Shown here piece after piece: positions 14,458 through 18,983 of a stretch of DNA of 64,000 bases. The notes under the pieces are model-generated. The model saw only the letters and a program-made list of their open reading frames with translations, ran no database searches and was not told where the DNA came from. The stretch is from Synechococcus sp. UW69 (GTDB lineage Bacteria; Cyanobacteriota; Cyanobacteriia; PCC-6307; Cyanobiaceae). Location of the stretch: contig NZ_UCNW01000004.1 of NCBI RefSeq assembly GCF_900474185.1, positions 62,001 through 126,000 on the forward strand. Reading direction: 5' to 3'. The stretch's first letter is position 1, and each line of letters begins with the position of its first letter. Both the position numbers and the translations under genes were made by a program.

Positions 14458-15585
<1,128 letters not shown>

Positions 15586-15707
15586 TTATCGGATCCAGCC
15601 GGGGAAGCGGGCGTTGGTCCCGATCGATCGCAATCTCAGAACGCCCATTGCAATTGGAGGACAAGCCTAAAAAATCCAGCTAAGAATCAAGCAAACGCAG
15701 TTTTCGC

Positions 15708-16568
15708 ATGCGTGCATTTCTGGCTCCAGCGGCAGCGCTGCTTGCCCTGGCTGGTCCAGTTGCCCTGACTCCACAAGCCTCCGCGGAAAGCACAACGCTT
15801 AAGGCGGTGATTTTTGAGGAAGTCAAGCCGCTGTATCAAAAAACCGACACCGGCTACGAAGGCCTCGGGGTTGATGTTCTCGAACAGATCCGGATTCAGG
15901 CCAACCGCCGCAACGTGACTTACCGAGTCGCGTCTTCCGTCAATGACGGCATTGGTGCCGTCATCACCGGCAAGGCCGACATCGCCTGTGGTGTGGCCTT
16001 CACCTGGGGCCGCTCCACTCAGGTCACTTACAGCCTTCCCTTCGGCGTCGGTGGCACACGGCTGCTGATGGCCAGAGATACCAGCATCGATGGAACCCCT
16101 GACTCGTTGGCAGGAGAAACCATCGGCGTGGTCAAGGACACCGCCTCCGCCAAGGTTCTGAAGAGCGTGGTGCCCGGCGCCACACTGAAAAACTTCGACA
16201 CCCCTAAGGAAGCGTTGGATGCCTTCTACACGGGTGACGTTCCGATCCTCGGTGGTGGAACCCTCTGGTTGGCCGCCAACAGCCGAATCGACAAAACGGC
16301 TCTACTGCCCTTCCGCCCCTACGGCCGCTCGGGCATCAGCTGCATCGTCAAGCAGGACAACGGCAAGCTGCTCTCGTCCACCAACATCGCGTTGGGACAA
16401 ATGATGCAGGCCTACATGGATGGTGATGCCGGAACGCGCCGCATGATCAACCGTTGGATTGGTCCCGGCAGCGATGTGGGCCTGAGCCAGGAAACAATTC
16501 GGTCTCTTTACGGCCTGATCCTCAGCATCACAGCAGAAATCAACACCCCAGCGACACCGGGAATCTGA
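15708..16568 (+). CDS. grrP: Orphan extracellular substrate-binding-like protein of the GRR cassette (GrrP-like)
   Basis: A 286-residue protein with a clear signal peptide (residues 1-26, ending TPQASA) and a family 3 periplasmic binding protein fold: GLGVDVLEQI, then GIGAVITGKADIACG, and the hinge-like TYSLPFGVGGTRLLMA. Family 3 proteins normally feed amino acids to an ABC transporter, but no permease or ATPase lies nearby. The gene stands 40 bases before the glycine-rich precursor and its radical SAM enzyme, the arrangement for which the GrrP name is used. Family knowledge supports the assignment; its ligand and role in peptide maturation or export are unknown. Confidence 0.8.
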   Translation: MRAFLAPAAALLALAGPVALTPQASAESTTLKAVIFEEVKPLYQKTDTGYEGLGVDVLEQIRIQANRRNVTYRVASSVNDGIGAVITGKADIACGVAFTWGRSTQVTYSLPFGVGGTRLLMARDTSIDGTPDSLAGETIGVVKDTASAKVLKSVVPGATLKNFDTPKEALDAFYTGDVPILGGGTLWLAANSRIDKTALLPFRPYGRSGISCIVKQDNGKLLSSTNIALGQMMQAYMDGDAGTRRMINRWIGPGSDVGLSQETIRSLYGLILSITAEINTPATPGI

Positions 16569-16608
16569 CTGTTCCGCGATTGCTTTCCTTCTTTATCAAT
16601 CAACAGCC

Positions 16609-17010
16609 ATGAAGCGTTCTCTCATTGCCTTTCAAGCACTGCTGGCCTCCAGCGCCGTGCTGTGCCAAACCGCCCAAGCCAGCTCCAGCTACAGCGCGCC
16701 TGAGCAACTCAACGGTCAGGCCAAAGCCAACAGCATCGAAGCCCGAATCGAAGCGGTGCGGAACACCGACTGGGGCAGCCTGCTCAAGGATCCTGAAATC
16801 GAAGGTGAGCTTGTTGCCAAGAGCAAATGGAAAAACGGCAAGGGCAAAAAGTTCGGCAACAGCCGTGGAAAAGGCAAGTGGGGCAACGGAAAGAGCGGCA
16901 ACAAGTGGGGCAATAGCCGCCGCACCTGGGGCAACGGTGGCTACGGCGGTGGCTGGCGCAACGGTGGCGGTGGCTGGAAGAACGGTGGCGGCGGATTCGT
17001 GAACTGGTGA
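16609..17010 (+). CDS. grrA: Glycine-rich repeat RiPP precursor with aromatic-X-Asn motifs (GrrA/OscA-like)
   Basis: A 133-residue precursor. Residues 1-24 are a signal peptide ending TAQA. Residues 25-70 form a leader with charged, helical-looking sequence (ANSIEARIEAVR). From residue 71 the protein is almost only Gly, Asn, Lys, Arg, Ser and aromatics, with eight aromatic-X-Asn tripeptides: WKN 74, FGN 82, WGN 91, WGN 100, WGN 107, WRN 116, WKN 123 and FVN 130, plus YGG at 112. In the OscA/GrrM class these tripeptides are the sites where the radical SAM enzyme joins the aromatic ring to the Asn beta-carbon, giving three-residue cyclophanes. The last codons overlap the maturase start (GTGA). 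The modification itself is inferred. Confidence 0.88.
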   Translation: MKRSLIAFQALLASSAVLCQTAQASSSYSAPEQLNGQAKANSIEARIEAVRNTDWGSLLKDPEIEGELVAKSKWKNGKGKKFGNSRGKGKWGNGKSGNKWGNSRRTWGNGGYGGGWRNGGGGWKNGGGGFVNW

Positions 17011-18194
17011 TTGTTTCTTCCCCAAATGTCAGGCCCGACCTCAACCGGTTCGGGCCCATCGGCCTCGTGGTTGTGCAGTCGACATCGCTGTGCAACCTCG
17101 ATTGCTCCTATTGCTATCTGCCGGATCGGCAGAAGAAGCGGGTTTTCGACCTCGATCTACTGCCTCTGTTGATCCAGCGGATTCTGGAAAGCCCCTATGC
17201 CGGGCCGGAGTTCGGACTTGTATGGCATGCCGGGGAACCGCTCACCCTGCCCACCAGTTGGTACGACGAGGCAACGGCGATCCTGCATCGCAGCCTCGAG
17301 CAGTTCAACGCCCAGGGGCTGGACTTCACCCAGCACGTTCAGACCAACGCAACGTTGATCAACGATGCGTGGTGCGACTGCTTCCGGCGCAACCGCATCG
17401 TGGTGGGGATCAGTGTGGATGGCCCAGAGGACATCCACGACGCCCACCGGCGCTTCCGCAATGGACGTGGCTCCCACGCCATGGCGATGAAAGGGATTGA
17501 AGCCCTGCATCGCAACGATGTGCCCTTCCACTGCATCTCGGTGGTCACCGCTGATGCCATGGAGCAACCGGAGCGGATGTATCGCTTCTTCCGGGACAAC
17601 GGCATCACCGATGTGGGCTTCAACGTTGAGGAACAGGAGGGCATTCACACCAGCTCCTCGATGCAAGGCTCAGTCATGGAGGAGAAATATCGCGACTTCC
17701 TCCGGGCTTTCTGGCGCCTTAGCGAGCAAGACGGTCATCCCGTCGTGCTGCGGGAATTCGAGCAGGTGATCAGCCTGATTCAAGGCAACGAACGGATGAC
17801 CCAGAACGAGCTCAATCGCCCGTTCTCGATTCTCAGCGTTGATTCGGATGGAAATTTCTCCACTTTCGACCCCGAGCTGCTGTCGGTTGCCAGCGACCGC
17901 TACGGCACCTTCAACCTCGGCAACCTGCGTGATCTGTCGTTGGTGGAGTCCACCAAAACCGATCAGTTCCGTCGCCTCCTGGCTGACATGAGCAGCGGTG
18001 TCGACACCTGCCACAAGGGCTGCGAATACTTCGGGCTCTGTGGTGGGGGCACCGGCAGCAACAAGTTCTGGGAGCACGGCAGCCTGGCAGCCAGCGAAAC
18101 CAATGCCTGTCGCTTCGGCACCCAGATTCCTGTTCAGGTATTGCTGGAGCGGTTCGAAGAGGGTCCTCCCCTGACTCCCATCACACCCAATTGA
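17007..18194 (+). CDS. grrM: Radical SAM/SPASM cyclophane-forming peptide maturase (GrrM/OscB-like)
   Basis: A 395-residue maturase. The N-terminal CNLDCSYC gives the CxxxCxxC cluster site (Cys29, Cys33, Cys36); a radical SAM barrel follows, with HAGEPL and a GISVDGPEDIHD block. The C-terminal SPASM region contains CHKGCEYFGLCGG (Cys335, Cys339, Cys345) and Cys368, which would bind auxiliary iron-sulfur clusters. The GTG start overlaps the precursor stop, indicating coupled translation. Enzymes of this group are known to form a carbon-carbon bond between an aromatic ring and the third residue of an aromatic-X-Asn motif; the adjacent precursor is the obvious substrate. The specific product is inferred. 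Confidence 0.92.
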   Translation: MIVSSPNVRPDLNRFGPIGLVVVQSTSLCNLDCSYCYLPDRQKKRVFDLDLLPLLIQRILESPYAGPEFGLVWHAGEPLTLPTSWYDEATAILHRSLEQFNAQGLDFTQHVQTNATLINDAWCDCFRRNRIVVGISVDGPEDIHDAHRRFRNGRGSHAMAMKGIEALHRNDVPFHCISVVTADAMEQPERMYRFFRDNGITDVGFNVEEQEGIHTSSSMQGSVMEEKYRDFLRAFWRLSEQDGHPVVLREFEQVISLIQGNERMTQNELNRPFSILSVDSDGNFSTFDPELLSVASDRYGTFNLGNLRDLSLVESTKTDQFRRLLADMSSGVDTCHKGCEYFGLCGGGTGSNKFWEHGSLAASETNACRFGTQIPVQVLLERFEEGPPLTPITPN

Positions 18195-18205
18195 TCTGGT
18201 TCTCC

Positions 18206-18667
18206 ATGCGGTCCATCGCTGTCCTGCCTGTCCTAGGCCTGCTGCTCATTCCGATGCAGGCCAGTGCCGCCTGCACCTTTCTGACTCCGGTGGGCGGCGG
18301 CGAGCCCATTGTGAAAAAAAAGGTGGAGCGTCCCAAAGGGCTCATCGGTAAAGCCGTCGGCCGCACCAACTGGAACACCGATTTCGTGGTGGATCAGCCC
18401 TACCGCAGTTTCAAGCTGTTTTTCACCGCCGATTCCAGCGACCCCAGCAGTTATCCCATTCAGGCCTTCCTCAAATTCAGCGATGGAAGCAACAGCAAGG
18501 TGGCCGATGAACAACTGCAGCCCCCAGTGGGCACCGGCCGCATGTTTGGGCCCTTCCAGCAGGTCTCAGGCAAGAGCATCAGCCAGGTGAATTTCCGGAT
18601 CGGGGCCAACAGCGACCCGCAAGCCACTGGATTCAGCTACCGCATTTCCGTACAGGGCTGCCACTGA
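18206..18667 (+). CDS. Secreted protein of unknown function, fourth gene of the GRR cassette
   Basis: I do not recognise a family. From the ATG at 18206 the protein is 153 residues with a signal peptide (MRSIAVLPVLG to about MQASA) and a mature part starting ACTF. The longer frame from a TTG at 18191 would put six residues before the signal, so the ATG is preferred. The mature chain has a lysine-rich segment (VKKKVERPK), then alternating hydrophobic and polar residues suggesting beta strands, and two cysteines (ACTF at the N-terminus, QGCH at the C-terminus) that could form a disulfide. It starts 11 bases after the maturase stop, so it probably shares its transcript and acts outside the cytoplasm. 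Confidence 0.8.
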   Translation: MRSIAVLPVLGLLLIPMQASAACTFLTPVGGGEPIVKKKVERPKGLIGKAVGRTNWNTDFVVDQPYRSFKLFFTADSSDPSSYPIQAFLKFSDGSNSKVADEQLQPPVGTGRMFGPFQQVSGKSISQVNFRIGANSDPQATGFSYRISVQGCH

Positions 18668-18725: not shown

Positions 18726-18983
18726 TTGAGCGAATCCGCTGATTCACAACGATGTCAGATCTGCCAGGTCGTCATCGAGTCCTCCCCAGGACTACCGGAC
18801 ACTGTGCAGTTCAGCAATGGCCCCAAGGGCAGCCGCAGCAAACTTTGGAGTCGCGTCTGTCAGTACGTGACTGATCCGGACCGTCAGCGCATTTGCATCA
18901 ATCAGGATTCCGAAGGTCGCGGCACCGAACAGGCTGGCGACGCTTTCCCCGATGCACCGCCCATCGATCTAGGCAAAACCTGA
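18726..18983 (+). CDS. Small hypothetical protein with CxxC and paired Cys
   Basis: An 85-residue frame from a TTG start. It has CQIC at residues 10-13, RVCQY around 44 and a further cysteine in RICINQD near 58, so it could bind a metal through four cysteines. The central SNGPKGSRSKLWSRVCQY segment looks like a conserved block, and I recall similar short proteins in marine picocyanobacteria, though I cannot verify this. No ATG lies in frame near the start. It sits between the GRR cassette and rimP on the same strand; it is not clearly part of either operon. Confidence 0.65.
   Translation: MSESADSQRCQICQVVIESSPGLPDTVQFSNGPKGSRSKLWSRVCQYVTDPDRQRICINQDSEGRGTEQAGDAFPDAPPIDLGKT

Follow-up and report, generated by a model that had tools for sequence, protein, structure and literature searches.

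What do the four genes at the grr locus of Synechococcus sp. UW69 make up, and to which partner does an exported binding protein without a transporter belong? The locus lies in the window, the whole 64,000-nucleotide stretch of DNA analysed here, and a preliminary description had read it as a complete cassette of four co-directional genes for a cross-linked, glycine-rich peptide. The coordinates, strand and spacings that it gave were all reproduced (Table 1): 40 bases separate grrP from grrA, the grrA stop codon and the GTG start of grrM overlap as GTGA, and 11 bases lie between grrM and the fourth gene. The first three proteins score above the NCBIfam cut-offs of 190 bits (TIGR04262, GrrP), 31 bits (TIGR04260, GrrA/OscA1) and 310 bits (TIGR04261, GrrM/OscB, with 363 of 363 positions covered), and their genes are the GrrP/GrrA/GrrM set of the GRR system, already named and represented by a curated family. 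The cassette itself is thus not novel, a curation that the preliminary description had overlooked. Purifying selection acts on each of the four genes, with dN/dS against close relatives of 0.07 for grrM, 0.08-0.13 for grrP, 0.09-0.12 for the fourth gene and 0.11-0.21 for grrA, and the base composition of the cassette is the same as that of its surroundings. No NtcA or Pho box was found upstream of grrP (15401-15760), and sigma-70 and terminator scans gave results near chance. A block, GGTCC-AATCGATCGCAATCTCA (15616-15638), in the htrA-grrP interval is conserved among close relatives and could be part of the promoter of either gene.

Table 1 Features of the grr locus (positions in the window)
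Feature	Position	Strand	Description	Basis or conservation
grrP	15708..16568	+	exported substrate-binding-protein-like, orphan	TIGR04262 339.3 bits; Pfam SBP_bac_3
grrA	16609..17010	+	precursor: Sec-type signal peptide, leader helix NSIEARIEAVRNTDW, Gly-rich core	TIGR04260 79.6 bits
motif 1 WKN	16828..16836	+	residues 74-76	aromatic and Asn invariant, X = G/K
motif 2 FGN	16852..16860	+	residues 82-84	aromatic F/W, Asn invariant, X = G/S/K
motif 3 WGN	16879..16887	+	residues 91-93	orthologue alignment
motif 4 WGN	16906..16914	+	residues 100-102	aromatic W/F, Asn invariant, X = G/S
motif 5 WGN	16927..16935	+	residues 107-109	orthologue alignment
motif 6 WRN	16954..16962	+	residues 116-118	orthologue alignment
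motif 7 WKN	16975..16983	+	residues 123-125	X = G/K/R
motif 8 FVN	16996..17004	+	residues 130-132, C-terminal Trp next	orthologue alignment
grrM	17007..18194	+	radical SAM/SPASM cyclophane-forming maturase, GTG start	TIGR04261 588.6 bits
fourth gene	18206..18667	+	ATG start, small secreted protein	Pfam/NCBIfam: none

The precursor carries exactly eight [WFY]xN triplets, the number counted in the preliminary description, compared with 1.5 expected from shuffles of its own residues (z 6.3). An alignment was made of 17 distinct GrrA sequences of the type seen in the window, 16 of them intact and one, a duplicate at L110, frameshifted. Among the intact orthologues, positions i and i+2 are each conserved in 128 of 128 instances over all eight motifs, with no changes at these cross-link positions other than W-F exchanges. 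X, in contrast, can be G, K, S, R, V or A; the mean entropy across all 17 sequences is 0.45 for the aromatic position, 1.03 for X and 0.28 for Asn. Fixed outer positions around a variable X are what a bond between i and i+2 would lead one to expect, as in three-residue cyclophanes, and repeated aromatic-X-partner triplets constrained in this way characterize GrrA as a triceptide precursor. Precursors next to GrrM in cyanobacteria have 5-11 aromatic-X-Asn motifs against 1-3 expected. The frameshifted sequence (L110:3791-4159, genome G174) is a second grrA copy, and the grrP accompanying it is open.

GrrM contains CNLDCSYC, and its nearest solved structures are an anaerobic sulfatase-maturating enzyme and ChlB. 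OscB is reported to link Trp (through C7) or Phe (through C4) to the C-beta of an Asn or Asp two positions further along (PMC11002830), and the family assignment and motif conservation agree with the earlier expectation of OscB-type chemistry at the eight motifs. A maturase conserved without aromatic-X-Asn motifs, which the preliminary description had set against its own reading, was not seen: 107 of 113 GrrM matches have GrrA immediately upstream, two more have it about 5 kb upstream, and the other four are on draft contigs, mostly close to a contig end. In Roseobacter (L070-L072), GrrM-like enzymes adjoin Gly-poor precursors with terminal WNNWSNWSNLWNNWNNWANW-type repeats.

Comparison across the 251 genomes of the family separated the fourth gene from the other three. 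GrrM, GrrP and GrrA were each found in 106 genomes; the GrrP and GrrM genome sets mismatch in four fragmented drafts only (G144, G221, G103 and G236), GrrA was undetected in G107 and G144, and all three are absent from the small-genome lineages. The fourth gene is present in 143 genomes, often in several copies, and 41 of these have no GrrM. Of the 102 genomes that have both it and grrM, at least 16 have the two less than 1 kb apart, a lower bound as adjacency was counted from the listed best places, and all of these 16 belong to the window's genus or to genus g34. Beside grrM it is absent in G061 and G234, frameshifted at L026/L031 and, in G004, split by an island of about 10.5 kb with a 13-base direct repeat, with grrP, grrA and grrM intact throughout; in G156 it occupies the site between htrA and rimP, the grr genes being on another contig. 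A single functional operon, with GrrA as substrate or partner of the fourth protein, would fit the shared direction, the 11-base spacing in the window and the adjacency in those genomes, but this distribution and these disruptions make it highly improbable. The part of the preliminary description that named a GrrP-GrrA-GrrM cassette therefore stands, whereas membership of the fourth gene is rejected on its distribution; it is a neighbour, not a GRR component.

The fourth protein is a small secreted member of an undescribed Cyanobiaceae family with invariant Cys23 and Cys152 and an RTNWNTDF motif. Its model is a beta-sandwich (pLDDT 81), for which the best Foldseek E-value was 6e-4 and query TM-scores were below 0.5 among the matches listed. 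The G004 insert (L169:5016-15575) is flanked by the repeat TCGGCAAAGCCGT and has genes resembling those for a multicopper oxidase, RND efflux, an HlyD-type protein and a two-component regulator; no tRNA was found at it. Two congeneric genomes, G048 and G108, have a fourth-gene homologue convergent with a stand-alone grrP-grrA pair (L120:3794-5406 and L121:2892-4518).

The new observation is that GrrP accompanies the precursor gene and not the maturase gene. In the family, 125 of 128 GrrP matches have GrrA downstream on the same strand, no more than 900 bases away, and the three exceptions are two at contig ends (G155:C29 and G236:C456) and one in a fragmented draft (G107). GrrA matches have GrrP upstream in 127 of 133 cases, but GrrM downstream in only 109. 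Within GrrM-containing genomes, 22 GrrAs are separated from grrM, and 18 of these have a GrrP of their own. The same independence is seen in tandem grrP-grrA-grrP-grrA-grrM arrays (L032, L034, L111-L115), in stand-alone grrP-grrA pairs (L117-L121), in pairs elsewhere in the phylum without grrM in the fetched stretch (L177-L180, L184, L185) and in G264, where grrM is more than 2 Mb from the GrrP-GrrA pair. From these counts and the GrrAs unlinked from grrM, we infer that the partner of GrrP is the precursor or its product and that GrrM probably acts in trans.

Some loci speak against GrrP as the partner of GrrA. Four unlinked GrrAs have no adjoining GrrP: the second grrA copy of the genome that holds the window (L159:4188-4550; on the minus strand beyond the window, at G000:C4:214190-214543), which has eight motifs and neither GrrP nor GrrM beside it, and its orthologues in G242, G207 and G004, while the orthologues in G131 and G186 have GrrP alongside. 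Outside the family, four proteins scoring above the TIGR04262 cut-off (L189-L192) have no GRR-like open reading frame nearby, in genomes without a detected GrrM, and are perhaps a separate subfamily; at L181 and L182, grrP is divergent from grrA-grrM.

What GrrP binds was approached through its fold. The AlphaFold model (pLDDT 88) matched glutamine- and arginine-binding proteins in Foldseek (E 4e-17; query TM 0.67 and target TM 0.79 for the best match), which agrees with the earlier description of a binding protein without a transporter: no permease or ATPase gene was recognised among the open reading frames of the cassette and its flanks, as ABC uptake would call for. All 32 GrrPs compared have C94, W100, R102 and C212, and R102, compared by eye with motifs of known family 3 proteins, appears to correspond to their carboxylate-binding Arg. 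Where family 3 proteins have the Asp that binds the amino group, most GrrPs have Asp and those of the window's clade have Gly. Several GrrPs have a lipobox-like N-terminus, which is absent from that of the window. On this fold, the invariant Arg and the Asp of most GrrPs, GrrP could be an ordinary amino-acid scavenger that borrows the permease of another uptake system, its adjacency to grrA reflecting co-regulation only. We regard this as rather unlikely, as GrrP is found together with GrrA and GrrM across the family and is duplicated along with grrA, and as the window's clade has Gly instead of the Asp. We suggest tentatively, as a possibility well short of probable, that GrrP is instead a dedicated periplasmic receptor or chaperone for a cross-linked, ribosomally made protein of the same cell, one GrrM serving scattered GrrP-GrrA pairs in trans. 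Arg102 would then possibly grip the carboxylate of the conserved C-terminal aromatic residue of the RiPP, and, if this is true, the fold of a nutrient-binding protein has been recruited to hold a RiPP; against it, a GrrP that retains the carboxylate-binding Arg may simply bind an amino acid. In G242 (L170:2488-3298 and L027), grrP is broken across two frames in an otherwise intact cassette, through either sequencing error or early decay.

In most of the related loci of marine Synechococcus type, the cassette is at one site, between htrA and rimP-nusA, with nblD before rimP in some. Five genomes of the same genus have no grrP, grrA or grrM, and four of them have remnants at this site: an open reading frame joining the start of grrP to the end of grrM (G112), a decayed grrP (G162), the start of grrP fused to the end of the fourth gene (G197) and the last 23 or so codons of the fourth gene (G089). 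G225 has no remnant there. The remnants end at different places, which indicates several independent deletions and hence a cassette that is ancestral at the site and dispensable as a unit; we read it as vertically inherited and repeatedly lost. Horizontal transfer was rejected on the native composition, the htrA / rimP-nusA site shared by most related loci and the scars in lineages lacking the cassette, and phage-borne copies were rejected as well, a scan of viral contigs giving distant radical SAM proteins only (23-27% identity). Downstream of the cassette, a gene at 18726-18983 (+) matches NblD at 75.7 bits, slightly below the cut-off of 80; its place is between cassette and rimP here, other relatives have it between htrA and grrP, and G225 and G162 lack it.

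We hold with considerable confidence that the locus is a vertically inherited, GRR-type triceptide cassette in which GrrA is cross-linked by GrrM, exported and, as proposed below, received by GrrP. This reading builds on the observed gene content, families, motif conservation, pairing, unlinked precursors, losses and non-membership of the fourth gene, and takes its bond chemistry from the published OscB work. GrrA would be made in the cytosol and recognised by GrrM, probably via the conserved leader helix. In up to eight core triplets, GrrM would then form a bond between the ring of the aromatic residue i and the beta-carbon of Asn i+2, with a mass loss of 2 Da per triplet, about 16 Da in total. 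The modified GrrA would be exported by its Sec signal peptide, with cleavage near AQA|SSS, and we propose that the mature protein is received in the periplasm by GrrP, the substrate-binding protein without a transporter. The number of modified motifs, the order of modification and export, and the binding of GrrA by GrrP are what we infer here.

The papers searched gave nothing useful on the function of the GRR system in marine Synechococcus. GrrA may be a structural glycine-rich protein, secreted or in the cell envelope, that is stiffened by cyclophanes and carried or chaperoned through the periplasm by GrrP, rather than a diffusible bioactive product; this is quite possible, if a little short of probable, given the roughly 110 residues left after the signal peptide, slow evolution under purifying selection, and a cassette without an immunity gene, dedicated exporter or protease. 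Release of GrrA into the medium as an antibacterial or signalling RiPP has a precedent in darobactin, an antibiotic among the radical-SAM cross-linked RiPPs (PMC9055067), but appears improbable for a precursor with a Sec signal in a cassette that has no immunity or export gene and has undergone repeated loss; nor is a resistance gene evident at the site. The findings narrow the gene set to three and make the pairing of GrrP with the precursor, rather than with the enzyme, the point worth following in a cassette that is ordinary in kind: the direct question is whether GrrP binds modified GrrA. Natural relatives in the same genus that lack grr genes and have visible scars can be used for physiological comparison.

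Compared with the GRR system of cyanobacteria, the locus has the same three proteins above curated cut-offs in the usual gene order and nothing different in kind, the window's clade adding a gene for a small secreted protein directly downstream. With the OscA1/OscB triceptides it shares the NCBIfam maturase family and aromatic-X-Asn motifs of the kind cross-linked by OscB (PMC11002830), the difference being the eight motifs here; a product of this organism was not found in the papers searched. XncB, MscB, YhhB, AmcB and DynA are, like GrrM, radical SAM/SPASM RiPP maturases, but their motifs are other than those of the GrrM system, and the AmcB, YhhB and DynA models match GrrM well below their own cut-offs. 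The family 3 amino-acid-binding proteins GlnH, ArtJ and LAO have the fold and the carboxylate-binding Arg in common with GrrP, whereas GrrP has no adjoining permease or ATPase gene, has invariant Cys94 and Cys212 and, in the window's clade, has Gly in place of the Asp that binds the amino group.
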